A stretch of 64,000 nt of DNA from Cyclobacteriaceae bacterium. Its GTDB lineage: Bacteria; Bacteroidota; Bacteroidia; Cytophagales; Cyclobacteriaceae. The notes under the pieces were generated by a model. It had not been told where the DNA came from, did not search any database, and saw nothing but the letters and a program-made list of their open reading frames with translations. The stretch is taken from contig PXCO01000071.1 in NCBI GenBank assembly GCA_003565295.1, positions 1 to 64,000 on the forward strand, given 5' to 3'. Positions 24,601-44,570 of this stretch are shown here, in pieces. The position numbers and the translations under genes were made by a program. Numbering within the stretch: position 1 is the first letter of the stretch; every line of letters starts with the position of its first letter.

Positions 24601-26346
24601 GTGAAAAACTCATTGATTAAATCTTGTGGAATTTGTTACCAGTTCATTTTGTTGGCTATTGTGGCTTGCAGCGATCAAACGGGGTTACCCCCTGGCGATG
24701 AAGACCATGGGGGGTTATTTTTACCGGAAGGTTTTGAAGCCGTAGTGGTAGTGGATAGCGTAGGTAGGTCCCGCCACCTTACCGTCACCGAAAATGGAGA
24801 TATATATGTAAAACTTCGGGTGCCAGATAAGGAAGGGAGGGGATTGGTGGCTATCCGTGACGAATCTGGAAATGGAAAAGCTGATATTGTCCAATATTTT
24901 GGCGACTATGAGGATGTGGGCAATTATGGAACCGGGATGCGTATCTATGATGGCTATATGTACTTTAGCACTGCCGGAGAAGTCTACCGCCAAAAATTGG
25001 AAAAAGACGAATTGATTCCCACAGGGCCTGTGGAACTTATCCTCAAAGACGATTATAAAAACGCCGAACATGGATATGAACATATTGCCAAACCCATCGC
25101 CTTCGATGATGATGGATATATGTATGTGCCGTTTGGTTCTCCCGGTGATGTGTGCCAAGAACTCAACCGCAAGCCAGGTGCACCGGGTATGGATCCATGC
25201 CCCCAATTAGAGTGGCATGCAGGGATATGGAGATTTGATGCCAATAAGCTCAATCAGACACAAGCCGATGGATACAGGTTTGCCACTGGAATAAGGAGTG
25301 TGGTTGCGATGGACTGGAACTCTACAGACCGAACTTTGTATGTGGTGCAACATGGTAGGGACAATTTACACCGCACCTGGCCCAAACTCTATAATAGATG
25401 GGAAAACGCCGTTTTGCCTTCGGAGGAATTCTTCCGGGTAAAGGAAGGGACTGACGGAGGTTGGCCTTATTATTATTATGACCAAATACAAGGCAAAAAG
25501 CTCCTCAATGCTGAATATGGTGGAGATGGGCAAGATGAAGGTGATGCACAAAATTATGAAATGCCGATAGTAGGCTTTCCCGGTCATTTTGCGCCGAACG
25601 ACCTGCATTTTTACCATGGAAATCAATTTCCGGATCGCTATAAAGAAGGTGCATTTGTGGCTTTCCACGGCAGCACCATTCGGGCACCTTATCCTCAAGC
25701 CGGTTATTTTATTGGGTTTGTGCCTTTTAAGGACGGAGAACCTTCTGGAGACTGGGAGGTATTTGCCGATGGGTTTGCCCAATTAGATACCATCGTAAAT
25801 ACCAGCGATGCTGCGGCCAGGCCCATGGGCATATCCATGGGGCCAGATGGATCGTTATACATAACCGAAAGTGTAAAGGGCAAAATCTGGAGAATCATGT
25901 ATAAGGGCAAAAAAAATGGTTTTGGAGAAAGTCAGTTAGCAAAATTGGAAGAAAGAAAAAGAACCAGAACAAACATTAAAGATCCACACCCTGAGGATGA
26001 CAATTTGGAAAAAGGGTTGATAGAGGCAGGGGCATCCATTTACAATTTATATTGTGGGCCCTGTCACCAAAGAGACGGCAAGGGCGATGGTACCAGGTTC
26101 CCTCCATTGGCAGGAACAGACTGGGTGACAGGCGACAAAACAAGGTTAATCACTCTTTTACTGGAAGGTATGGAAGGGCCCATCACTGTGAATGACATTT
26201 CCTATAATGGCATAATGCCCTCCCACAGTTTTCTTAGCGATGAGGACGCCGCAGCTGTGCTCACCTATATCCGAAAAAGCTTTGGAAATGAAGCCAGCAG
26301 TATTTCTGCGGTAGAAGTGAAAAAAATTAGAGAATCACTTGAATAA
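24601..26346 (+). CDS. PQQ-type sugar dehydrogenase (sorbosone-dehydrogenase-like) fused to cytochrome c, lipoprotein
   Basis: 581 residues from a GTG start. The lipobox LLAIVAC gives lipidation near residue 23. A six-bladed glucose/sorbosone-dehydrogenase-type propeller spans about 40-440 (LPEGFEAVVV, DDDGYMYVPFGSPGDVCQ, RPMGISMGPDGSLYITE). A class I cytochrome c domain spans about 470-575 with CGPCH (heme binding, about 482) and the probable Met ligand in GIMPSHS. Such fusions oxidise sugars or sugar alcohols in the periplasm and pass electrons through the heme. It is the first gene of a five-gene run of exported proteins, 9 bp from the next. Confidence 0.88.
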   Translation: MKNSLIKSCGICYQFILLAIVACSDQTGLPPGDEDHGGLFLPEGFEAVVVVDSVGRSRHLTVTENGDIYVKLRVPDKEGRGLVAIRDESGNGKADIVQYFGDYEDVGNYGTGMRIYDGYMYFSTAGEVYRQKLEKDELIPTGPVELILKDDYKNAEHGYEHIAKPIAFDDDGYMYVPFGSPGDVCQELNRKPGAPGMDPCPQLEWHAGIWRFDANKLNQTQADGYRFATGIRSVVAMDWNSTDRTLYVVQHGRDNLHRTWPKLYNRWENAVLPSEEFFRVKEGTDGGWPYYYYDQIQGKKLLNAEYGGDGQDEGDAQNYEMPIVGFPGHFAPNDLHFYHGNQFPDRYKEGAFVAFHGSTIRAPYPQAGYFIGFVPFKDGEPSGDWEVFADGFAQLDTIVNTSDAAARPMGISMGPDGSLYITESVKGKIWRIMYKGKKNGFGESQLAKLEERKRTRTNIKDPHPEDDNLEKGLIEAGASIYNLYCGPCHQRDGKGDGTRFPPLAGTDWVTGDKTRLITLLLEGMEGPITVNDISYNGIMPSHSFLSDEDAAAVLTYIRKSFGNEASSISAVEVKKIRESLE

Positions 26347-26355
26347 TCCTATGAT

Positions 26356-27117
26356 ATGTGGAAAAATACCTGCTATTTATTTGGCATTACATTATTGATA
26401 CTATGGGTAATTTCCCCATTTCAGAATGCAGCTATGACTAAAAAATCAGAACAGCCCAACACCTACCATGTAAAGCCGATAACAGGACTTATGGTAATAG
26501 ATGCCAAATGGAACAAGGCTACGTGGGCAGCGATACCGAGTATCAATATTACGCACATCATGGGGGATAAACCCCACTTCATGCCGGAAACAGAGGCCAA
26601 ACTCGCCTATGACCAACACCATTTATATGGTATATTTCAAGTAAAGGATAGGTATGTTATCAGTGAAGAAACTAAAACCAATGGGCCGGTTTCCAGAGAC
26701 AGCTGTGTAGAATGGTTTTTTGCCCCAAATGAAGATAACCCTTTGCAATATTTTAATATTGAAATTAATGCTGGGGGTACCACACTTTTTCATCATGTGA
26801 CCGTACCAAGAAAAGAATACCTGGTAATTGATGAGGAGGATATTTCAAAAATTACGGTGGCCACTAGTCTGCCAAGTGTAATATCCCCGGAAATTACCTC
26901 CGATACCACTTGGACAGTGGAATTTAAAATACCTATTTCGCTACTTGAAAAATATAGCAAGGTGAGTGCGCCCAAAAAAGGGGTGGAGTGGAGGGCCAAT
27001 TTTTACAAGACTGCCAACAGAAACAGTAACCCCCATTATATTACCTGGAACAAAGTAGAAAACCCAAGACCTGACTTTCATTTACCACAATATTTTGGGA
27101 AATTGATATTTGAATAA
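26356..27117 (+). CDS. CBM9-like (carbohydrate-binding family 9) exported protein
   Basis: 253 residues with an N-terminal hydrophobic segment (signal peptide or anchor, about 5-25). The body matches CBM9-like proteins of Bacteroidota: IDAKWNKATWA near the start, then AKLAYDQHHLYGIFQVKDRYV, DSCVEWFFAP, YFNIEINAGGT, and a closing HLPQYFGKLIF. The role is probably glycan or sugar binding in the periplasm or at the surface. It lies between the PQQ dehydrogenase and the RidA gene in the same operon. Confidence 0.87.
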   Translation: MWKNTCYLFGITLLILWVISPFQNAAMTKKSEQPNTYHVKPITGLMVIDAKWNKATWAAIPSINITHIMGDKPHFMPETEAKLAYDQHHLYGIFQVKDRYVISEETKTNGPVSRDSCVEWFFAPNEDNPLQYFNIEINAGGTTLFHHVTVPRKEYLVIDEEDISKITVATSLPSVISPEITSDTTWTVEFKIPISLLEKYSKVSAPKKGVEWRANFYKTANRNSNPHYITWNKVENPRPDFHLPQYFGKLIFE

Positions 27118-27140
27118 ATCACCACTAACGAGAAAAGAAG

Positions 27141-27680
27141 ATGAAAAATTTGATGATTACTTTGATTTGCCTTTTGCTGGTTTGCTCCATGGAGTCCACA
27201 TTTGCACAGGGAAGCCATGATCCGGAGGCCAAACTTGCGGAAATGGGATTAAGCCTGATTCCCCCTTCTGATGCACCATCGAAAATCATGAAGGCCGTTC
27301 GAACTGGAAACTTGATTTTTCTCTCCGGACACGGCCCAACCAATGCCGAAGGGGAAACTACACGAGGAAAGCTGGGTGTGGATCTTACAGTAGAACAGGG
27401 GCGTGAAGCCGCTCAGCTAACGGGGGTTCAGCTTTTGTCCTCACTAAAAGCGGAAATCGGTGATTTAAAAAAGGTAAAGAAAGTGGTAAAAGTACTGGGC
27501 ATGGTCAACAGCGCCCCTGATTTTACCCAACAACCTGCGGTGGTCCATGGGTTTACCGACTTAATGATTGATGTTTTCGGTGAGGAAATAGGCAAACATG
27601 CCAGATCTGCGGTGGGCATGGCCTCGCTGCCTGGCGGAATGGCCATAGAAATAGAAATGATCGTAGAAGTAGAAGACTGA
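27141..27680 (+). CDS. RidA/YjgF family enamine/imine deaminase, exported
   Basis: 179 residues, of which about 22 are a clear signal peptide (ICLLLVCSMESTFAQG), unusual for a family that is normally cytoplasmic. The RidA core has VRTGNLIFLSGHGP and the catalytic-type arginine in HARSAVGMASLPGG, followed by MAIEIEMIVEV. RidA proteins hydrolyse reactive enamine/imine products of PLP-dependent ammonia-lyases. The next gene encodes exactly such a PLP enzyme, also exported, so the two probably work together. Confidence 0.92.
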   Translation: MKNLMITLICLLLVCSMESTFAQGSHDPEAKLAEMGLSLIPPSDAPSKIMKAVRTGNLIFLSGHGPTNAEGETTRGKLGVDLTVEQGREAAQLTGVQLLSSLKAEIGDLKKVKKVVKVLGMVNSAPDFTQQPAVVHGFTDLMIDVFGEEIGKHARSAVGMASLPGGMAIEIEMIVEVED

Positions 27681-27694
27681 TTATCAGTCCCTAT

Positions 27695-27715
27695 GATTAC
27701 ACTAGTGGTGTAATC
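27695..27715. promoter_or_regulatory. Perfect inverted repeat between ridA-like and selA-like genes
   Basis: GATTACAC-TAGTG-GTGTAATC, 8-bp perfect arms and a 5-nt loop, placed 15 bp after the RidA stop and 26 bp before the next ATG. There is no T-run, so it is not an ordinary terminator. It may be a regulator site or an mRNA-processing/stability hairpin. Confidence 0.5.
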
Positions 27716-27740
27716 GGCAAGCATATTAAATCCAATTGTC

Positions 27741-28964
27741 ATGATATCAAGACGAAAATTATTGAAAAGACTATCTACTTTCCCCTTGGTGGGAGGTATG
27801 ATAGGAACAGGATTACCCATTCATTCTGCCATAAGCCAACCATTGGAGGAAGCTCCTAAACGCGACGTGATGAAAGAATTGGGCATTCGCACCTTTGTTA
27901 ATGCTGCAGGTACCTATACCGCAATGACAGCCTCATTGATGCCTAAGGAAGTAATGGAAACCATCCAAATTTCAGGGACTCAGTTTGCCATGCTAGATGA
28001 AGTACAGGACAAAGTTGGTGAAAAAATAGCCAAACTCTGTCACGCAGAAGCCGCAACTGTCACGGCTGGATGTTGGTCAGCCATGGTGTTGGGATTGGCG
28101 GGAGTACTCACTGGCACCGATAAAAAAAAGGTAGCTCAATTGCCCAATCTCGAGGGGATGAAAAATGAGGTGATCGTGCAAAAATCCCATAATGTGGGCT
28201 ATGTCCATGCGCTAACCAATACCGGGGTCACCATGATAGAAGTAGAAACAGCACAGGATGTGGAGAGAGCCGTCAATGATAAAACCGCTATGATGTGGTT
28301 CTTGAATTATCAGGCACCTGAAGGAAAAATAGCTCATGAGGAATGGGTGTCCCTTGGCAAAAAACACAACATCCCAACCATGATAGATATGGCAGCGGAT
28401 GTGCCGCCTGTAGAAAATCTATGGAAATACAATGATATGGGCTTTGATTTGGTTTGTGTTTCAGGAGGAAAAGCCATGAAAGGCCCCCAAAGTGCCGGAA
28501 TTCTTATGGGCAAAAAAGACCTTGTCGAAGCCGCACGGCTAAGTGCTCCCCCAAGAGGAGGCAATATTGGCAGAGGCATGAAAGTGAACAAGGAAGAGAT
28601 TTTGGGCATGTATGTGGCCTTAGAAATGTACATCAACAAAGACCACGAAAAAGAGTGGAAATCATGGGAGGACAAGGTAGCTCAAATAGAAAATGCCGTA
28701 AAGGACCTTCAAAGCGTGAAAACGGAAGTGTCTGTACCGCCCATAGCTAACCACACCCCTTATTTGAATATTAGCTGGGACCTAGATGTGATTAAAATTA
28801 CCCGTGCTGAACTTCAGGACAAACTCAGGAGTGGCGAGCCTTCCATAGAGGTAATAGGTAGCAAGGACAACGCCATCAGCCTCACCGTATTTATGCTTAG
28901 GCCCAAGGAAGAAAAAATTGTTGCCAAACGAATTCGGGAAGAATTAAAAGCAGCCTTAGTTTAA
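27741..28964 (+). CDS. SelA-like PLP-dependent ammonia-lyase/transferase with Tat signal
   Basis: 407 residues. A Tat-type leader (SRRKLLKRL, then a hydrophobic core to about 31) points to export of a folded cofactor protein. The fold-type I PLP core has D217 in MIDMAADVPP and the Schiff-base lysine K244 in SGGKAMKGPQSAG. The sequence belongs with the SelA-like/COG1921 group, which includes D-glucosaminate-6-phosphate ammonia-lyase (DgaE), rather than with true selenocysteine synthase. There is no selenoprotein machinery nearby. The likely reaction is an alpha,beta-elimination of ammonia from an amino acid or amino-sugar acid, with the imine cleared by the adjacent RidA. Confidence 0.87.
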   Translation: MISRRKLLKRLSTFPLVGGMIGTGLPIHSAISQPLEEAPKRDVMKELGIRTFVNAAGTYTAMTASLMPKEVMETIQISGTQFAMLDEVQDKVGEKIAKLCHAEAATVTAGCWSAMVLGLAGVLTGTDKKKVAQLPNLEGMKNEVIVQKSHNVGYVHALTNTGVTMIEVETAQDVERAVNDKTAMMWFLNYQAPEGKIAHEEWVSLGKKHNIPTMIDMAADVPPVENLWKYNDMGFDLVCVSGGKAMKGPQSAGILMGKKDLVEAARLSAPPRGGNIGRGMKVNKEEILGMYVALEMYINKDHEKEWKSWEDKVAQIENAVKDLQSVKTEVSVPPIANHTPYLNISWDLDVIKITRAELQDKLRSGEPSIEVIGSKDNAISLTVFMLRPKEEKIVAKRIREELKAALV

Positions 28965-29049
28965 CTTAAAACCAATGCTCAATATCTATTCGCATTAAAC
29001 TTGATTAGTGAGCCTAGCTCACGTGCATGTGTCAATTAACTCTTTTCTA

Positions 29050-30306
29050 ATGAAAAACAATTTAATAGTTATTGCAATATGTGGCTTTCTCTGTTTCGGA
29101 GGGGTCACTTATGCCCAGGATTACGATTTAGTCATCAAAAATGGACATGTAATTGATCCAAAAAGCGGCACAGATGCCCTCAATGACGTAGCCATAAAAG
29201 ATGGGAAGGTAGCTAGAATAGCGGCTTCAATCCCCGGAAATGGGGCCAAGCAGGTGGTGAACGCAGAAGGAATGTTGGTGGTTCCAGGATTGATTGATAT
29301 TCATGGACACAACTTTGCGGGAACCAGGGAAAACAGTTACCTAAGTGACGGCCTTACGGCAGTGGATCCAGATGGCTATACTTTCCGTGTAGGGGTTACC
29401 ACTATTGTAGATTGTGGTGGTCCGGGATGGAAGAACATCCACATTTTTAAACAAAATATCATAGATCCATCAAAAACCCGGGTATTGGCCTTCTTAAACA
29501 TTGTGGGGGAAGGAATGCGTGGAGGAGCCTGGGAACAGGACACTACAGATATGGATGCAGAAATCACTGCTCAAGCCGCTTTAAAATACAAAGAGCATGT
29601 GGTGGGATTCAAGGTGGCCCATTATAGCCGAAGAGATTGGATTCCCATTGATCGTGCGGTGGAGGCTGGAAACATTGCCAGTATGCCTGTTATCATCGAC
29701 TTTGGAGGTTCAATGTCCTTTGCACCATTAAGATTGCGGGAACTGTTTTTTGAACGTTTACGCCCCGGCGACATCTATACACACACCTTTGCAGAACTTG
29801 GTGGTGCAAGGGAACCTATTGTGGAATATGAAACTCGGCAGTTTAAGCCTTTTGTCAGAGAGGCACAGGAAAGAGGAATAATTTTTGACGTGGGATACGG
29901 TGGTGCCAGTTTTGATTTTCGCCAGGCTTTACCTGCTTTGGAAGCAGGATTCTTGCCCAACACCATCAGTACTGACCTCCACAAAGGAAGTATGAATGCC
30001 GCTATGAAAGACATGTTGAACATCATGTCAAAGTTTTTGGCAATGGGAGTGGATCTTCCAAAGGTGATAGAAATGAGCACCTGGGAACCTGCAAAAGTCA
30101 TTCAGCGTGAAATGCTTGGAAATCTTTCCGAAGGAGGAATCGCTGACGTGGCCATCCTTGGGCTCAGAGATGGAAACTTTGGTTTTTGGGACAGGAACGG
30201 TTACAAAATTAACGGAGACAAACGCTTTGAATGCCAGATGACCATTAAAGAGGGTAAGATTGTCTATGACCTGAACGGGATAGCTGATCCTGTGGTGCTA
30301 AAATAA
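29050..30306 (+). CDS. Amidohydrolase/deacetylase family metallohydrolase (COG3964-like), exported
   Basis: 418 residues from ATG 29050; the track's GTG at 29008 would add 14 residues before a typical signal peptide (MKNNLIVIAICGFLCFGGVTYAQ), so I reject it. The amidohydrolase metal site is visible: IDIHGHNF (HxH), the likely carboxylated lysine in GFKVAHYS, a His in YTHTFAE and the Asp in ISTDLHKG. COG3964 members hydrolyse esters or amides of acylated 2-hydroxy or amino acids and often neighbour SelA-like genes, as here. It closes the operon before a strong terminator. Confidence 0.88.
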   Translation: MKNNLIVIAICGFLCFGGVTYAQDYDLVIKNGHVIDPKSGTDALNDVAIKDGKVARIAASIPGNGAKQVVNAEGMLVVPGLIDIHGHNFAGTRENSYLSDGLTAVDPDGYTFRVGVTTIVDCGGPGWKNIHIFKQNIIDPSKTRVLAFLNIVGEGMRGGAWEQDTTDMDAEITAQAALKYKEHVVGFKVAHYSRRDWIPIDRAVEAGNIASMPVIIDFGGSMSFAPLRLRELFFERLRPGDIYTHTFAELGGAREPIVEYETRQFKPFVREAQERGIIFDVGYGGASFDFRQALPALEAGFLPNTISTDLHKGSMNAAMKDMLNIMSKFLAMGVDLPKVIEMSTWEPAKVIQREMLGNLSEGGIADVAILGLRDGNFGFWDRNGYKINGDKRFECQMTIKEGKIVYDLNGIADPVVLK

Positions 30307-30328
30307 ACGTGTTAATATTGAAACATTT

Positions 30329-30360
30329 GCCTTCGGCCAATGGCCGGGGGCATTTTTTTT
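30329..30360 (+). terminator. Rho-independent terminator
   Basis: GCCTTCGGCC (30329-30338) pairs over 10 bp (two G-U) with GGCCGGGGGC, with a 3-nt loop, directly followed by ATTTTTTTT. It ends the PQQ-CBM9-RidA-SelA-amidohydrolase operon. Confidence 0.92.
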
Positions 30361-35405: not shown

Positions 35406-35918
35406 ATGCCAGTAGCCCAACCCATCAATTTCAATAAATGGATAGCCGAAAACCGGCACCTGCTGAAGCCTCCTGTAGGTAACCAACAAATGTATAAAGG
35501 CAACGATGATTTTATCGTTATGGTGGTGGGGGGTCCAAATGCCCGTAAGGACTTTCATTACAATGAGGGCGAGGAGTTTTTCTTTCAGGTGGAAGGCGAC
35601 ATTACCCTAAAGATCGTAGAGGACGGGGAAATCAAAGATATAAATATTCATGAGGGGGAGATGTTTTTGTTGCCCCCAAAAGTACCGCACAGCCCCAGGC
35701 GCCCGGCCAATACCATAGGCCTGGTCTTCGAACGATACCGGAAACCCGGTGAAAAAGACGGTTTCATATGGCATTGCGAAAATTGTGGGAATAAACTTTA
35801 TGAGGAATACGAGGAAATTACCGACATCGTCAATCAACTTCCGCCAATAATGGACCGATTCTGGAGCAATCCCGCCAACACCAGGTGTAAACATTGTGGA
35901 ACGGTAATGAGCAAGTAA
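35406..35918 (+). CDS. nbaC: 3-hydroxyanthranilate 3,4-dioxygenase
   Basis: 170 residues. The cupin metal site has H51 and E57 in DFHYNEGEEFFF and H95 in PHSPRRP. The bacterial rubredoxin-like second iron site is present with C124-x2-C127 and C161-x2-C164. The enzyme opens 3-hydroxyanthranilate to 2-amino-3-carboxymuconate semialdehyde, which cyclises to quinolinate for NAD or is degraded further. It is followed by kynureninase and KMO in pathway context, about 90 bp upstream of kynU. Confidence 0.96.
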   Translation: MPVAQPINFNKWIAENRHLLKPPVGNQQMYKGNDDFIVMVVGGPNARKDFHYNEGEEFFFQVEGDITLKIVEDGEIKDINIHEGEMFLLPPKVPHSPRRPANTIGLVFERYRKPGEKDGFIWHCENCGNKLYEEYEEITDIVNQLPPIMDRFWSNPANTRCKHCGTVMSK

Positions 35919-36007
35919 GCAAAAGATAAATTATTTTTTCCAAACAAGTAATCACCAATTTGGTTTTTACTTGTGATTTTTATCTTTGCAGGCATTAACC
36001 GAACGCT

Positions 36008-37297
36008 ATGCCCCCTTTCCAATACCGTGCTACGCTTTCTTTCGCCAAGCAGATGGATGAGGCCGACCCATTGAGAGAATTTAGGTCCAAATTCCTATTG
36101 CCAAAAACAAACAGTGGAGACAAAATTTATCTCTGTGGAAATTCCTTGGGACTTCAACCCACAACCGTAAGCAGCTACCTTTCAAAGGAACTTGAAAAGT
36201 GGGAAACACTTGGCGTGGAGGGCCATTTTAAGGGAGAGAACCCATGGGTGTTTGCCCGGAAAACTTCCAAACCCGCCTTGGCGATACTCCTCGGGGCAAA
36301 GGAAAGCGAGGTTACCCCAATGAACAGCCTAAGCACCAATTTACATTTGTTACTTGTTTCCTTCTATAGGCCTAGGCCGGGCAAATATAAAATCCTCGCT
36401 GAGGCAGGAGCCTTTCCCTCTGACCAGTTCATCCTCGCTTCACAGGCAAAGTTTCACGGCTATGACCCAAATGAGGCCATCCTTGAAATTAAACCCAGGG
36501 AGGGTGAACATACCTTACGAACAAATGACATTATAACCAAGATTGAACAACATGCCCATGAATTGGCCATGATAATGATGGCAGGGGTCCAATATTACAC
36601 AGGGCAATGGTTTGATATGGAAAAAATCAGTGCTTGTGCAAAGGCACATGGTGTTCCCGTTGGCTTTGACCTTGCCCACGCCATTGGCAATGTACCTTTG
36701 CAACTTCATCAATGGAAGGTAGATTTTGCCACATGGTGCAGTTACAAATACCTGAATGCAGGACCAGGAAATGTCTCTGGGGTTTTCGTGCACGATGATC
36801 ATGGACAGCATTTTAATGGCCCAAGGTTTACGGGTTGGTGGGGCACAAATGAGAAAACAAGGTTTCAAATGCAAAATGATTTTCAGGCCCTTCCAGGAGC
36901 AGATGGGTGGCTACTCTCTAATGACAACGTATTAGGTCTTTCAGCCTTACAGGCTTCTTTGGATATATTCATAGAAGCCGATATGGGGCGGATCAGGAAA
37001 AAAAGTGAACTATTGACCGGGTACTTGGAGTTCTTAATCAGGGATAGCTGTGACGATCCTTCTCTAATTAATATCATAACCCCCTCAAATCCAAAAGAAA
37101 GAGGTTCCCAGTTGTCATTATTTATCCATAAAAGGGGAAAAGAGATCTTCGAGCATATGCACTCAGAAGGGGTAGTGGCAGACTGGAGAAACCCAAATGT
37201 GATCCGGGTAGCCCCTTGCCCTCTATATAACAGTTTTACCGATTTATATAATTTCGGTAAAATTATTAAGCAATCCATCCGGAAATTCGTTGAGTAA
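36008..37297 (+). CDS. kynU: Kynureninase
   Basis: 429 residues. The fold-type I PLP enzyme has the Schiff-base lysine K247 in WCSYKYLNAGPG, the pyridine-contact Asp in GFDLAHAIGN, and an N-terminus IYLCGNSLGLQP typical of kynureninases. It cleaves kynurenine or 3-hydroxykynurenine to (3-hydroxy)anthranilate and alanine. The next gene (KMO) starts 31 bp downstream at the preferred ATG. Confidence 0.97.
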   Translation: MPPFQYRATLSFAKQMDEADPLREFRSKFLLPKTNSGDKIYLCGNSLGLQPTTVSSYLSKELEKWETLGVEGHFKGENPWVFARKTSKPALAILLGAKESEVTPMNSLSTNLHLLLVSFYRPRPGKYKILAEAGAFPSDQFILASQAKFHGYDPNEAILEIKPREGEHTLRTNDIITKIEQHAHELAMIMMAGVQYYTGQWFDMEKISACAKAHGVPVGFDLAHAIGNVPLQLHQWKVDFATWCSYKYLNAGPGNVSGVFVHDDHGQHFNGPRFTGWWGTNEKTRFQMQNDFQALPGADGWLLSNDNVLGLSALQASLDIFIEADMGRIRKKSELLTGYLEFLIRDSCDDPSLINIITPSNPKERGSQLSLFIHKRGKEIFEHMHSEGVVADWRNPNVIRVAPCPLYNSFTDLYNFGKIIKQSIRKFVE

Positions 37298-37328
37298 CTA
37301 TTCTAGTCGAAAGCACAAACATCAAACC

Positions 37329-38681
37329 ATGAACCAACCCATCAGTATTTTAGGAGCAGGTCTTATAGGATCTCTTTTAAGCGTATATTTAAAGAAAAGG
37401 GGGCTGGATGTCACCATATTCGAAAAGCGAAAAGATTGGAGAACCTCTCAAACAGTTTCCCATGGAAAGTCCATTAATATGGCATTAAGTTATAGGGGGT
37501 GGAAAGCGCTGGAAAAAGGAGGACTTAAAGAGGCCGTGATTCCGCATACTATCCCTATGTATGGAAGACGTATACATGATGAACATGGCAGCACCTATTT
37601 CCAGCCCTATGGCAAAGAACAGGAAGCCATTTATTCCATATCCAGAAACACCCTAAACGGCATTCTGTTAGACGCGGCAGAAGCTTCTGGGGTGAATTTG
37701 GCTTTCGAGCATAAGGTAGAAAATGTGGATGTTCACCAAAACGAAATTACTTTCTCACTACCCGATCAATCCTTCAAAAAACGGGAATCAGCAATCATAT
37801 TTGGTGCGGACGGTGCTTATTCTTCCCTACGCAATGCCATGCAAAGGCAAAGTAGATTTAACTTCAAACAGGAATACATTTCGCACGGATACAAGGAACT
37901 GAGCATCCCCCCCACCAGAGGTGGTGAATATGCCATGGACCCAAATGCCCTACACATTTGGCCCCGTGGAAAGTTTATGCTCATTGCTCTACCCAATACC
38001 GACAAATCTTTTACTTGTACACTATTCCTCCCCTTTGAAGATTACAAAGTATGTTTCGACAAAATCCGAGACAAGGAGGATGTAGACCATGTGTTTCAGA
38101 CCTATTTCAACGATGCCTACCATTTAATGCCTAACCTGGGAAAAGAATTTTGTGAAAACCCCACTTCGGCATTAATTAATACCGAATGTTATCCCTGGAC
38201 AGTTAATCATTGCCTACTCATAGGTGATGCTGCCCATGCCATGGTGCCCTTTTATGGGCAAGGCATGAATTGCGGCTTTGAGGATTGTCATATTTTGGAT
38301 GACCTTATAGAAAAGTACGGTACTTTTTCATGGGATTTGGTTTTTGAAAAATTCCAGAAAGGCAGGAAACCAGATACGGATGCCATCTGCCAATTGGCCA
38401 TGAACAACTTTGTGGAAATGAGCGAAAATGTGGCGGATCCCAAGTTTTTGGTAAGGAAAAAGATAGAAGCTAAACTGCATGAACTTTTCCCTGAAGATTG
38501 GGTACCTCTCTATAGCATGATTACCTTTTCCGCTATTAAATATTCGGAGGCCTACGCCATAGGCAAAATCCAGGATGAGGTAATGGAAAAGGTGATGAAG
38601 GAACCTTTTATTACCCAAAACTGGGAGAACCTAGATTATCACGAAATACTCAACAAGGTGGAAACTGCCAAAGCAGTCTAA
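37329..38681 (+). CDS. kmo: Kynurenine 3-monooxygenase (FAD-dependent)
   Basis: 450 residues from ATG 37329; the track start at 37290 is a TTG overlapping kynU that would add 13 residues before the FAD motif, so I reject it. Group A flavoprotein hydroxylase features: ILGAGLIGSLL (GxGxxG), FGADGAYSSLRNAM (DG motif) and LIGDAAHAMVPFYGQGMNCGFED (GD motif). It hydroxylates kynurenine to 3-hydroxykynurenine using NADPH and O2. Together with kynU and the dioxygenase it covers kynurenine to quinolinate precursor; tryptophan dioxygenase and formamidase are not in the window. Confidence 0.95.
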   Translation: MNQPISILGAGLIGSLLSVYLKKRGLDVTIFEKRKDWRTSQTVSHGKSINMALSYRGWKALEKGGLKEAVIPHTIPMYGRRIHDEHGSTYFQPYGKEQEAIYSISRNTLNGILLDAAEASGVNLAFEHKVENVDVHQNEITFSLPDQSFKKRESAIIFGADGAYSSLRNAMQRQSRFNFKQEYISHGYKELSIPPTRGGEYAMDPNALHIWPRGKFMLIALPNTDKSFTCTLFLPFEDYKVCFDKIRDKEDVDHVFQTYFNDAYHLMPNLGKEFCENPTSALINTECYPWTVNHCLLIGDAAHAMVPFYGQGMNCGFEDCHILDDLIEKYGTFSWDLVFEKFQKGRKPDTDAICQLAMNNFVEMSENVADPKFLVRKKIEAKLHELFPEDWVPLYSMITFSAIKYSEAYAIGKIQDEVMEKVMKEPFITQNWENLDYHEILNKVETAKAV

Positions 38682-38706: not shown

Positions 38707-39795
38707 TTAGCTGCTTTTCTCCGATGGAATTGTTCTCCAAAAAGAAGCTAAAATGGAACCTGTAATATTCATGATTACACTAAATACTGCAGGGGCCAGC
38801 CCCATGGTGGCAATTTTACCCATGCTACCTGCCAAGGCACCTGCTAAACCACCATTTTGAGAGCCCACCTCAATGGAGATGGTTCTGCTATCTTTTTCAT
38901 TCATCCCCAGGACTCTACCTGCGAAATATCCAAGAAAAAGGCCCAATACATTATGAAGCACCACTAATGCCAGTAAGAGCCATCCCATTTTCACTAAATA
39001 GGGTTTTCCTGATGCTGTGATAATGGCAATTACCACGGCAATGGTAAGCATGGACAGCAAAGGCAGGACCTGATGAAGGAATTTTGCCTTATCCTTGAGT
39101 ACATGATTGATCAATAAGCCTGCTGCGATCGGCACCAACACCATTTTGGCAATGTTCCACATCATCTCCACCATAGCGATTTCCACCAAAGTACCCGCCA
39201 GGTATTTCATTAGCAAAGGGGTAAAAACAGGAGCCAAAAGGGTGGAAACCACCGTGATCGAGATGGATAATGGCAAGTTGGCCTTAGCCAAATAACTGAG
39301 CACGTTAGATGCTACACCACTCGGCGCACAACCAACAAGAATGATCCCCGCAGCAATTTCTGCAGGCATTTGACTCATTAGTGCCAAAAGAGTGCCCGAT
39401 AATGGCATTATGGTGAGTTGACAGGCCAACCCTATAAATACCCCTTTAGGGGATTTGGCTATTGCCAAAAAATCTCTAATGGTCATGGTGCAGCCCATGC
39501 CAAACATTACAAATTGTATCAATGGGGTAATTAGCAAAGTAAGTTCTAGAGAACCAAAATTGGTAAAGGAACCAGGAAAAAGCAATGCAGCAAGGGAAAA
39601 GCCGGCGACCAATAAGGTATATAAGTAAGGCTTTAGGTTTTTCGAGAGATAAAATGCTATAAACAACATAGCTATCCCCAACAAAACAAATTTGCCTGCC
39701 ATTAAAGCCCCGATTTTCCACCAAGTTACAAACGCCAGCAAAAAGCAGCACAATCCTAGATAAACGATGAATTGCTGCAAGTATTTATTTTTCAA
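38707..39795 (-). CDS. Bile acid:sodium symporter (BASS) family transporter, copy 1
   Basis: 362 residues with about ten hydrophobic segments. The BASS core motif GCAPSGVASNVLSYLAKANL is present, as are EVGSQNGGLAGALAG and FTPLLMKYLAG near the predicted sodium sites. The family moves organic anions (bile acids, pyruvate, pantoate and others) with Na+; the substrate here is unknown. It is clearly paralogous to the next gene upstream in the operon (gap of 4 bp). It faces the kynurenine genes tail to tail. Confidence 0.92.
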   Translation of the reverse strand: MKNKYLQQFIVYLGLCCFLLAFVTWWKIGALMAGKFVLLGIAMLFIAFYLSKNLKPYLYTLLVAGFSLAALLFPGSFTNFGSLELTLLITPLIQFVMFGMGCTMTIRDFLAIAKSPKGVFIGLACQLTIMPLSGTLLALMSQMPAEIAAGIILVGCAPSGVASNVLSYLAKANLPLSISITVVSTLLAPVFTPLLMKYLAGTLVEIAMVEMMWNIAKMVLVPIAAGLLINHVLKDKAKFLHQVLPLLSMLTIAVVIAIITASGKPYLVKMGWLLLALVVLHNVLGLFLGYFAGRVLGMNEKDSRTISIEVGSQNGGLAGALAGSMGKIATMGLAPAVFSVIMNITGSILASFWRTIPSEKSS

Positions 39796-39799
39796 GGCC

Positions 39800-40882
39800 T
39801 TAGTCCTTAGGGGGTTTCCTATGCCAATAAGAAGCCAACATGGAACCTGTAATGTTCATCAATGGCCCGAATACCGCAGGAGCTAAGCCCACGGTTGCTA
39901 TCTTGCCCATTTCTTTGGCCAAACCGGAGGCAAGTCCCCCGTTTTGCATTCCAACTTCCAGGGCCACCGTGCGGGCGTCCCGCTCCGAAAGGCCAAGTCC
40001 TCTGCTTATCCAATAGCCAAAATTGTATCCGCAAAGGTTATGGATAAGCACAAGTAAAATTAACAATAACCCGATTTCCAATAAAGAATCCCTACCCGCA
40101 GCGGTGATGATGGTAATGATCACCCCTATACCTATCATGGAAACCAAAGGCATGGCATCATCCAGCCATTTTGCCTTTCCACTCAAAAACCGATTAAATA
40201 ACAGGCCTCCTCCAATGGGGATAATTACCATTTTGATGATGCTCCACATCATGTCCAAGACATCAATGGCGATAAATTCTCCTGCCAGAAACTTCATCAA
40301 TAGAGGTGTAGTAAAAGGAGCGAGTAGAGTTGCAATGGCTGTAATGGTGATGGAAAGGGCCAGATTTGCTTTTGCCAAAAAGCTCATCACATTTGAAGCC
40401 AAGCCACTTGGGGTACATCCAATCAGTATAATACCGGCTGCAATTTCCGAGGTAAAGGGACTTAAAGTGGCGATGGTAAAACCCAGTAAGGGCATGATGG
40501 AAAACTGGCAAATTAGTCCCACAAATACACCTTTTGGCATTTTTGCCACTCCCACAAAGTCCTTGACGGACATGGAAGTGCCCATACCAAACATGATGAT
40601 TTGAATCAATGGAGTTATCAAATTACTAAATTCATAATCCCCGTAAGAAACGAAAGTAGCCGGGTAATACATGGCAGCAGTCACCCCTGAAAAAATCATC
40701 ATGGTATAAGTAAGGCCTTTTAACCTCTCGTATCCCCTAAAACCTATTCCCAATAAAGCGAAGAAAACTATCAAATAAGGGCCTCCGTTTTCCGGTACTC
40801 CCATAAACCAAAGGGTCAAAAATATAAAAAATGATATAAAGCCAATAATAATTAAGACCTGGTAAAGCTTCTGATTTTTCAA
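39800..40882 (-). CDS. Bile acid:sodium symporter (BASS) family transporter, copy 2
   Basis: 360 residues with about ten membrane segments and the same signature: GCTPSGLASNVMSFLAKANLAL, EVGMQNGGLASGLA and FTTPLLMKFLAGEF. Tandem duplication with copy 1. The pair is translated together and lies 51 bp after the exported RidA gene in the same direction, so the three could form one operon. The substrate is unknown. Confidence 0.92.
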   Translation of the reverse strand: MKNQKLYQVLIIIGFISFFIFLTLWFMGVPENGGPYLIVFFALLGIGFRGYERLKGLTYTMMIFSGVTAAMYYPATFVSYGDYEFSNLITPLIQIIMFGMGTSMSVKDFVGVAKMPKGVFVGLICQFSIMPLLGFTIATLSPFTSEIAAGIILIGCTPSGLASNVMSFLAKANLALSITITAIATLLAPFTTPLLMKFLAGEFIAIDVLDMMWSIIKMVIIPIGGGLLFNRFLSGKAKWLDDAMPLVSMIGIGVIITIITAAGRDSLLEIGLLLILLVLIHNLCGYNFGYWISRGLGLSERDARTVALEVGMQNGGLASGLAKEMGKIATVGLAPAVFGPLMNITGSMLASYWHRKPPKD

Positions 40883-40932: not shown

Positions 40933-41397
40933 TTATACGTAGGCGATACAGTCCATTTCTACCAAAGAGTCGCCGGGGACTCCTCCATAAGTGGCCACCG
41001 TGGTCCTTACTGGAGGCTTGGAACCAAATCTTCCCCTGTATACCTCATTCATACCTTTGTAATCATTTAGGTCATGCAGATATACGTTTACTTTCAATAC
41101 CTTTTCCATGCTAGATCCTGCTTTCTTTAGCTCCTTTTCTAATTCTTTGAGTACATGATCCGTATGGTCTTTGATGTCGCCGTCGAAGTGGGCACCCTTC
41201 CCGGCCACAAAGATCATATTGTTGAATTTCGTTGAACCCGCAAATAAGGGTACATCTTGGTCTTCGGTTACATTAAAAACCTCCTTTTCTCCAGAGCCTT
41301 GTTGATGATCCGCTTTGGCCACCAGACTTATGCCTGCAAAACCTGCTAAAGAGGTAAACAGCTTTTTAATGGTACTCCTTCTTTCTAGTTTTTTCAT
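40933..41397 (-). CDS. RidA family protein with Tat-like export signal
   Basis: 154 residues from ATG 41397; the track start at 41493 adds 32 residues without signal character. The leader RRSTIKKLFTSLAGFAGISLVAKA looks like a twin-arginine signal. The RidA core contains LFAGSTKFNNMIFVAGKGA and the conserved arginine in PPVRTTVATYGGVPGDSLVEMDCIAYV. The expected activity is hydrolysis of enamine/imine intermediates, here outside the cytoplasm. It is the second exported RidA in this window. The downstream BASS transporters could carry its substrate or product; this is inference. Confidence 0.88.
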   Translation of the reverse strand: MKKLERRSTIKKLFTSLAGFAGISLVAKADHQQGSGEKEVFNVTEDQDVPLFAGSTKFNNMIFVAGKGAHFDGDIKDHTDHVLKELEKELKKAGSSMEKVLKVNVYLHDLNDYKGMNEVYRGRFGSKPPVRTTVATYGGVPGDSLVEMDCIAYV

Positions 41398-41668: not shown

Positions 41669-42592
41669 ATGACCACTTCCAATATGCCCTTGGTCGGATT
41701 ATGCCTTTTGTCAACATTGTTCGCCTGTCAACCCAAAAAAGAAAAAGCGATGAACCATTCAGAAAATGAAAAAGCACCTTATGCAAGTTTTCACTTTACC
41801 ACCGGAGGAGAATTTACATCCGGCATAGAAGGCCCCGCAGTTGATAAGGAGGGGAATTTGTATGTGGTAAATGTTTTTAAAGAAGGTACAATTGGCAAAG
41901 TCACTCCTTCTGGGGAAGTAAGCCAATTCATTACCTTACCGGAAGGCAGCACAGGGAACGGAATTAGGTTCAACAGCAAAGAGGAAATGCTTATTGCCGA
42001 TTACACGGGGCACAATGTCTTGCAAGTGAATATGGAAACAAAGGAAATTTCCGTATTTGCCCATGACCCTTCCTTAAACCAACCTAATGATTTGGCCATT
42101 ATGGATAATGATATTCTTTTTGCCAGCGATCCTGATTGGAAAAATGGCAAAGGACAAATCTGGAGAGTGGAGAGGAATGGAACCTTTGTTTTGCTGGAAA
42201 CAGATATGGGTACGACCAATGGGATAGAAGTGAGCCCTGATAACAAAACCCTATATGTAAATGAGAGTCTGCAAAGAAATGTTTGGGCTTACGACCTTAA
42301 TGAATCCGGAGAAATCTCCAATAAACGCCTGTTGATCCAATTTGAGGATTTTGGGATGGATGGAATGCGGGCAGATGTGGATGGCAACCTATACATTACC
42401 CGGCACGGGAAAGGTACAGTGGCAAAAATATCCCCGGAAGGGGAATTACTGGAGGAAATAGCACTATCTGGAAAGCTTCCCTCCAATATTGCTTTTGGAG
42501 GTAGTGATGGCAAAACTGCCTATGTCACCTTGCAGGATAATGGTAATATAGATGCCTTTTATGTAGAATCACCCGGAAGAGAATTTAGGTGA
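41669..42592 (+). CDS. SMP-30/gluconolactonase-like beta-propeller lipoprotein
   Basis: 307 residues with a lipobox (LSTLFAC, Cys near 19). Six-bladed propeller signatures include GPAVDKEGNLYVVN, GNGIRFNSKEEMLIADYTGHNVLQV, LNQPNDLAIMDND, TNGIEVSPDNKTLYVNES and MRADVDGNLYITRHGKGTV, with the metal-binding type E, N and D positions of the SGL family. The likely role is lactone hydrolysis in the periplasm. Standalone gene, divergent from the RidA/BASS group. Confidence 0.9.
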   Translation: MTTSNMPLVGLCLLSTLFACQPKKEKAMNHSENEKAPYASFHFTTGGEFTSGIEGPAVDKEGNLYVVNVFKEGTIGKVTPSGEVSQFITLPEGSTGNGIRFNSKEEMLIADYTGHNVLQVNMETKEISVFAHDPSLNQPNDLAIMDNDILFASDPDWKNGKGQIWRVERNGTFVLLETDMGTTNGIEVSPDNKTLYVNESLQRNVWAYDLNESGEISNKRLLIQFEDFGMDGMRADVDGNLYITRHGKGTVAKISPEGELLEEIALSGKLPSNIAFGGSDGKTAYVTLQDNGNIDAFYVESPGREFR

Positions 42593-43799: not shown

Positions 43800-44570
43800 T
43801 TAGCCTTTGAGTGTTTCATATCTTTCATTGATTTTCGCCCAATCCACCACATTCCACCAGCTAGAAATATATCTTCCCCGCTCGTTTTGGTAGTTAAGGT
43901 AATATGCATGCTCCCACACATCTATGCCCATTAAAGGCTGACCCTTGAAATCCGAAATGTCCATCAAAGGATTATCCTGATTGGGCGTGGAACCAACTTT
44001 GAGGGATCCATTGTCCAAAACTAACCAGGCCCATCCGGAACCAAACCTGGTCATACCTGCATTTTCGAATGCCTCAACGAAGGATTGGAAGTTCCCGAAA
44101 TCCCCGTCTATTGCCTCGGCAAGTGAACCTGTGGGATTACCTCCTCCATTCGGAGACATGATTTTCCAAAAAAGTTCGTGGTTGTAATGGCCTCCGGCAT
44201 TGTTTCTCATCTTAGTGGAGTAGTTGGATATGTTGGCCAAGACATCTTCCAGAGGTTTCTCGGTATCGACATCCTCCTCACCTGCAGCCTCCTGGGCGTT
44301 ATTGGCATAGGCGGCAGCATGCTTATTATAGTGGATATCCATGGTCATGGCATCAATATGGGGCTCCAGCGCACTATAATCATATGCCAAATCAGATTGG
44401 CTGAATCCCGTTGATAACTTTGCCTTGTCGGACTCTTTAGGAGACTCGCATCCGGCGAAAAATGATGTTCCGACCATCCCCGCCCCCAGTCCAATGGACA
44501 ATGATGCCTTGGTGCTGTGGGATAGGAAAGACCTTCTCGATGGATCAAAGGAAGTTTTTTTCATTTTCAT
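43800..44570 (-). CDS. sod: Exported Fe/Mn superoxide dismutase
   Basis: 256 residues, longer than the usual 195-210 because of an N-terminal leader with a twin-arginine motif (SRRSFLS), a hydrophobic stretch and a lipobox-like FFAGC. The SOD fold is complete with metal ligands in MDIHYNKHA (His), HYNHELFW (His), and DVWEHAYYLNY (Asp and His). It detoxifies superoxide, here apparently in the periplasm, possibly as a lipoprotein. Fe versus Mn preference cannot be decided by eye. Monocistronic. Confidence 0.95.
   Translation of the reverse strand: MKMKKTSFDPSRRSFLSHSTKASLSIGLGAGMVGTSFFAGCESPKESDKAKLSTGFSQSDLAYDYSALEPHIDAMTMDIHYNKHAAAYANNAQEAAGEEDVDTEKPLEDVLANISNYSTKMRNNAGGHYNHELFWKIMSPNGGGNPTGSLAEAIDGDFGNFQSFVEAFENAGMTRFGSGWAWLVLDNGSLKVGSTPNQDNPLMDISDFKGQPLMGIDVWEHAYYLNYQNERGRYISSWWNVVDWAKINERYETLKG

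Follow-up and report, generated by a model that had tools for sequence, protein, structure and literature searches.

Predicted exported PLP enzyme, amidohydrolase and RidA of a Cyclobacteriaceae bacterium suggest a candidate extracytoplasmic route for amino-sugar breakdown

The window analysed here is a stretch of 64,000 nucleotides (positions 1 to 64,000, forward strand) of contig PXCO01000071.1 from a Cyclobacteriaceae bacterium (assembly GCA_003565295.1). It carries an operon of five genes at 24601-30306, which encode a dehydrogenase of the pyrroloquinoline quinone (PQQ) type fused to cytochrome c, a CBM9-like protein, a RidA protein, a DgaE/SelA-type pyridoxal phosphate (PLP) enzyme and a COG3964 amidohydrolase. 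On balance, the sequences favour a role of this operon, together with genes 8-12 kb downstream for a RidA with a twin-arginine translocation (Tat) signal (Tat-RidA), SBF symporters and an SMP-30 protein, in the extracytoplasmic oxidative breakdown of (N-acylated) amino sugars or close 2-amino-3-hydroxy acids. We are highly confident that the PLP enzyme, the amidohydrolase and Tat-RidA form an exported functional unit. Protein families, export-type N-termini, active-site residues and the co-occurrence of the core genes were read directly from the sequences and are reported as found.

The PLP enzyme, a strong COG3964 amidohydrolase and Tat-RidA occurred in an identical set of 40 of the 149 genomes of the family, and all three were absent from the remaining 109. 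Fisher's test for the PLP enzyme against the amidohydrolase gave 3e-37 over the 149 genomes, uncorrected for relatedness; more telling is the joint variation inside nine genera that mix carriers and non-carriers (g2, g6, g26, g46, g53, g64, g71, g75 and g84), in which the three genes travel together. The Tat-RidA gene was located less than 500 bp from the PLP gene in 21 of the 40 genomes and less than 3 kb from it in 30. A wider sample of the phylum was tested for the PLP enzyme and Tat-RidA: the PLP enzyme was found in 8 of 396 genomes, and a strong Tat-RidA (E <= 1e-40) was present in all eight of these and in none of the other 388. Because homologues of the operon's own RidA were found in 122 of the 149 family genomes, whereas the sets of the three other genes coincide at 40, these three were taken as the core and the operon RidA as auxiliary.

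Conservation of the gene set had been named as a check by an earlier note made from the letters of this DNA, and it also extends to gene order. Pleomorphovibrio, Lunatimonas and Lunatibacter share the order dehydrogenase-cytochrome, CBM9, RidA, SelA-type enzyme, amidohydrolase; so does Cyclobacterium, several species of which carry an additional amidohydrolase within it. In the clusters of 13 other genomes, the SelA-type, amidohydrolase and Tat-RidA genes were present in all 13, the dehydrogenase-cytochrome in 10, RraA in 8, SBF in 7 and SMP-30 in 6. Larger, re-ordered clusters of these families were found in Chitinophagaceae genomes, Dyadobacter, Parapedobacter and others; such clusters add an SMP-30 lactonase, an SBF symporter, an RraA-like aldolase, a second Tat-signal RidA and SusC/SusD; sigma/anti-sigma pairs also occur in clusters of relatives. 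SusC/SusD, the sigma/anti-sigma pairs, the symporters and the RraA-like aldolase suggest nutrient uptake and carbon use. They argue against the alternative that the exported enzymes have a detoxifying or scavenging role at the cell surface, directed at reactive imines or modified amino acids, and form no carbon pathway, which the wide spread of Rid1-type operon-RidA homologues compared with the PLP enzyme would suit and which we regard as highly unlikely.

Two further loci were noticed in the bacterium's own genome. One (L078; contig C311, 4467-9450) carries two amidohydrolase genes followed by genes for a SelA-type enzyme and a RidA; its SelA-type enzyme has 535 residues with an extra C-terminal part, and its RidA has a possible lipoprotein signal. 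We counted this locus in support of the proposed system. The other (L077; contig C356, 12403-13632) encodes a 60% paralogue of the PLP enzyme with no amidohydrolase or RidA gene nearby, the contig end being close.

All five open reading frames (ORFs) of the operon lie on the + strand and are separated by roughly 9, 23, 60 and 85 bp. A scan of 12 kb revealed no stronger terminator than the one behind them, although terminator-like sites taken together showed no enrichment over shuffles. The earlier note had described five consecutive co-directional genes closed by a strong terminator, which the ORFs, the domains and the hairpin (11 pairs followed by T8) bear out, and its domain identities agree with the domain searches (GSDH plus cytochrome c, CBM9_2, Ribonuc_L-PSP, SelA/DgaE-like and COG3964/PRK09237). 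Its view of a single operon was too narrow, however: the five genes are real, but the system has a second part, consisting of Tat-RidA, two SBF genes and SMP-30, at 38.7-42.6 kb, outside the interval it considered. Tat-RidA and both SBF genes form one unit on the - strand, and SMP-30 is on the + strand. For the amidohydrolase, an ATG start at 29050, which gives the signal peptide MKNNLIVIAICGFLCFGGVTYAQ, is likelier than the GTG at 29008 of the mechanical ORF listing.

Export signals were called by a simple home-made scan of N-termini combined with inspection, a heuristic and not SignalP or TatP. An export-type N-terminus was seen on each of the five products, in line with the original proposal that all are exported, and the call was weakest for the CBM9 protein (10 of 23 homologues). 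Tat signals were called in 52 of 59 homologues of the PLP enzyme, and Sec or lipoprotein signals in 21 of 23 homologues of the RidA, 41 of 55 of the amidohydrolase and 27 of 29 of the dehydrogenase; in control neighbour families, export signals were called in only about 3 of 68. A twin-Arg motif was present near the N-terminus in 75 of 76 PLP-enzyme and 28 of 32 Tat-RidA sequences, and TatC is encoded in the bacterium's genome. Matches of DgaE to the PLP enzyme start only past residue ~40, which makes the N-terminal extension an addition to the enzyme fold. It is fairly probable that the majority of the route is located outside the inner membrane.

The PLP enzyme matched TIGR01437 and scored 146.5 bits for family membership. 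The closest solved structure to its model was DgaE (7lc0; TM 0.78/0.86), with 23% identity. With DgaE it shares the fold, the PLP lysine (K244, invariant in 76 of 76 sequences), the basic residue at the carboxylate-binding R226 position (64 of 66) and, presumably, elimination on a 2-amino-aldonate, whereas it differs in its Tat signal and in the loss of two DgaE features, the phosphate-binding Arg cluster and, in nearly all members, His-162 and His-163. In the phosphate cluster (R301, R332 and R346), Arg was found at the R332 position in 4 of 66 sequences and was uncommon at the other two, and the enzyme of the window has Y341, I372 and F384. A missing phosphate site would fit a substrate encountered outside the cytoplasm. 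The His-163 position is occupied by Q191 in the window, and only 2 of 66 short-form members have His there.

It has been reported that His-163 of DgaE is a stereospecific proton donor and that the H163A mutant, though active, releases free enamine (PMC9529869), and that Rid proteins with the equivalent of Arg-105 are imine deaminases (PMC5619798). By analogy, the free enamine of an H163A-type enzyme is likely to be a substrate of RidA. An enzyme that lacks His-163 and frees an enamine for a Rid protein to hydrolyse would thus give a reason for the tight tie between the PLP enzyme and RidA. His-163 is missing in nearly all members, and every carrier genome has Tat-RidA; the L075 enzyme retains His at this position and also has a Tat-RidA gene upstream.

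The second-best structural match, nearly level with DgaE, was Cap15 (8t7j), which has a SelA-like fold and acts on a similar type of substrate, a beta-hydroxy-amino acid. Its substrate, glycyluridine, is a nucleoside-sugar-linked beta-hydroxy-alpha-amino acid (PMC6411801), so the PLP enzyme could instead be an O2-dependent oxygenase/decarboxylase and not an ammonia-lyase. Cap15 itself is an O2-using enzyme of secondary metabolism. We consider this alternative very unlikely, since the profile comparison prefers DgaE (176 bits versus 143 bits), and imine and keto-acid products would suit both the strict co-occurrence with RidA and the RraA-like aldolase often present in the clusters. An alpha,beta-elimination by the PLP enzyme with RidA clearing the enamine is the probable reaction.

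The RidA that accompanies the PLP enzyme is not the one first assumed. A link between the two had been proposed within the operon, and a RidA does accompany the enzyme, but the specific one is Tat-RidA at 40933-41397. The operon's own RidA was rejected as a dedicated partner: besides its presence in 122 genomes, many more than the 40 that have the PLP enzyme, its homologues were located within 10 kb of only 11 of 59 short PLP-enzyme genes. Its nearest solved or classified relatives are PDB 3d01 and the Rid1 proteins PA0814 and ACIAD3089. Arg155, the equivalent of RidA Arg-105, was present in 29 of 29 sequences, a predicted imine deaminase feature, and the consensus of Tat-RidA contains PPvRTTV, which appears to cover the same position; the L067 member of the Tat-RidA protein cluster (c9) matched PF01042 at 2.4e-19. 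Many homologues of the operon RidA in family genomes without the PLP enzyme also have an N-terminal extension.

The amidohydrolase scored 423.7 bits against PRK09237 (cut-off 371), and its PDB relatives are 8je0 and 2ogj. Compared with these COG3964 enzymes it is of the same family and shares most metal-site residues, but it has a signal peptide and, where 2ogj aligns a His, an Asp or Glu. Except for that one His, the metal-site residues (HxH, Lys, His, His and Asp) were kept in 72 sequences (Lys in 71).

The AlphaFold model of the dehydrogenase (mean pLDDT 77) best matched the AA12 PQQ pyranose dehydrogenases and soluble glucose dehydrogenase. H161, R232, R253, R407 and the CxxCH motif were present in 40 of 40 sequences, the equivalence to the catalytic His and PQQ-site Arg residues being judged by motif. 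The predicted propeller fold, the His/Arg motifs and the coupling to a haem domain are common to this protein and the AA12 enzymes (6jt5 and 6h7t); it differs as a bacterial lipoprotein with a C-terminal cytochrome c, at 16-18% identity, and no PQQ synthesis gene was found in the genome. The PQQ-type dehydrogenase, SMP-30, CBM9 and RraA-like enzymes together suggest sugar chemistry. SBF/BASS proteins transport keto acids (for example PanS and BASS2). Among characterised enzymes of the RraA fold the chemistry varies, the substrates being 4-hydroxy-2-oxo acids or 2-keto-3-deoxy sugar acids (PMC5065237, PMC8563752).

A different substrate was also considered. The exported set could degrade N-acyl-D-amino acids (D-serine, D-threonine and relatives) through deacylation, PLP-dependent dehydration, RidA action on enamines of the 2-aminoacrylate type and import of pyruvate or 2-oxobutyrate by the symporter. 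OngC, which catalyses the matching step of the Ong pathway, also accepts D-Ser and D-Thr (PMC9537276), and some clusters lack the PQQ dehydrogenase and SMP-30 and have gamma-glutamyltransferase (GGT) or M81 genes instead. This remains an unlikely though reasonable alternative, since a sugar dehydrogenase is present in the cluster here and in most relatives, and SMP-30, CBM9 and RraA-like proteins recur, none of which is needed for D-Ser or D-Thr. We favour an amino-sugar acid over N-acyl-D-amino acids, with confidence that is about evenly poised.

For such a substrate the following route is proposed. The PQQ-type dehydrogenase would oxidise the aldose at C1, with its fused cytochrome c as the electron acceptor, and SMP-30 would open the lactone to the aldonate. 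The N-acyl group would be removed by the COG3964 amidohydrolase. The DgaE/SelA-type enzyme would then eliminate the C3 hydroxyl of the unphosphorylated 2-amino acid and, without His-163, free the enamine, and the exported RidA would convert the enamine/imine to the 2-keto-3-deoxy acid and ammonia. Many relatives have an exported RraA-like enzyme that may convert the keto acid further, and the SBF/BASS symporter would import the keto-acid product. We infer from families and residues what each enzyme does, in which order, on what substrate and where. For a route outside the inner membrane, as in the earlier note, sugar oxidation, deacylation, PLP elimination and RidA give the best fit and are backed by the SMP-30, RraA-like and SBF partners, which are absent from that note, but deacylation had been placed last; it should precede the PLP step because PLP requires a free amine. 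Only tentatively can this be extended to a near-complete extracytoplasmic amino-sugar pathway, from oxidation to imine hydrolysis and, in many relatives, an RraA-like step, in which only the keto acid is imported and the exported RidA replaces the quenching of the enamine by His-163.

Several observations weigh against this reading. Residue 217 of the amidohydrolase is Asp (66) or Glu (6) in all 72 sequences, at the position of a His metal ligand of 2ogj. No PqqE above the cut-off was found in the genome, so PQQ would need an outside supply, and the same genome has five RraA genes. Signal calls are heuristic and export is predicted. Among 59 short PLP-enzyme genes, 13 have no amidohydrolase within 10 kb, several of them near contig ends. 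In some clusters, M81/MlrC, GGT or aminotransferase genes replace the sugar-oxidising genes, so substrates may differ. Loci L065 (8004-17033), L055 (2724-7981) and L063 have M81/MlrC, GGT and a Pfam-less Tat-signal protein beside SelA and RidA and are possibly a variant for a different substrate.

The closest described logic is the Ong oxidative chitin pathway (OngB-OngC-OngD-KdgK) of Pseudoalteromonas prydzensis, in which deacetylation of GlcNAc1A precedes its deamination by a PLP enzyme and RidA is essential in vivo (PMC9537276). The 2-keto-3-deoxy acid is formed without prior phosphorylation and is then phosphorylated by KdgK; the catabolic enzymes are predicted to be cytoplasmic, OngB being D-aminoacylase-like and OngC of fold-type III (PMC9537276). 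The sequence of deacetylation, PLP deamination and RidA is common to both systems. In the operon, however, the PLP enzyme is of fold-type I (DgaE/SelA), the deacylase is of COG3964, all proteins carry predicted export signals, and RraA-like and SBF proteins recur; the OngB and OngC types are not the families of its deacylase and PLP enzyme. The earlier statement that no pathway of this kind had been described thus holds in part: the open-access literature searched, which has limited coverage, yielded no exported version, but the Ong logic has been described, in the cytoplasm and with other families (PMC9537276).

Table 1 Features of the proposed system in the window
Feature	Coordinates	Strand	Evidence
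PQQ-type sugar dehydrogenase (beta-propeller)-cytochrome c fusion, lipoprotein-type signal	24601..26346	+	PF07995 + PF00034, AlphaFold model, conserved residues
CBM9-like protein, predicted exported, probable sugar binding	26356..27117	+	PF16011 (CBM9_2) 4e-35; hydrophobic N-terminus
Operon RidA, predicted exported, nearest Rid1 proteins	27141..27680	+	PF01042 (Ribonuc_L-PSP), PDB matches
DgaE/SelA-type PLP enzyme (fold-type I), Tat signal, core	27741..28964	+	TIGR01437 5e-52, structural match 7lc0
COG3964 amidohydrolase, Sec signal, probable N-deacylase, core	29050..30306	+	PRK09237 4.8e-127
Intrinsic terminator	30328..30352	+	11-pair stem then T8
SBF/BASS-family Na+ symporter 1, possible product importer	38707..39795	-	PF01758; family found inside relatives' clusters
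SBF/BASS-family Na+ symporter 2	39800..40882	-	PF01758; 91% to Pleomorphovibrio homologue
Tat-RidA (predicted Tat-exported RidA), core	40933..41397	-	84% to L047 member of cluster c9; co-occurrence with PLP enzyme
SMP-30/gluconolactonase-like lipoprotein	41669..42592	+	PF08450 3.6e-43; homologues inside relatives' clusters

Between the operon and the downstream group, 35406-38681 encodes a 3-hydroxyanthranilate dioxygenase (NCBIfam) and, by inspection, kynureninase-like and kynurenine-monooxygenase-like ORFs. These kynurenine genes were rejected as part of the system, since Pleomorphovibrio (L033) was the only case, among the fetched loci outside the bacterium's own genome, in which they border on it. 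By inspection, the protein encoded at 43800-44570 is superoxide-dismutase-like, and its N-terminus has a twin-Arg and is lipoprotein-like.

The usual view places PLP ammonia-lyases and RidA in the cytoplasm, where RidA shields PLP enzymes from enamines. If a PLP enzyme and a RidA are indeed exported as a conserved pair, amino nitrogen would be released and a reactive enamine formed outside the inner membrane. A family in which the DgaE-type proton donor is gone from nearly all members, and which is always paired with a dedicated RidA, would offer a direct test of the reason for RidA, and the system could help explain the role of OngD, the RidA of the Ong pathway. If true, it would add a route of amino-sugar turnover in Bacteroidota beside the hydrolytic and Ong pathways.

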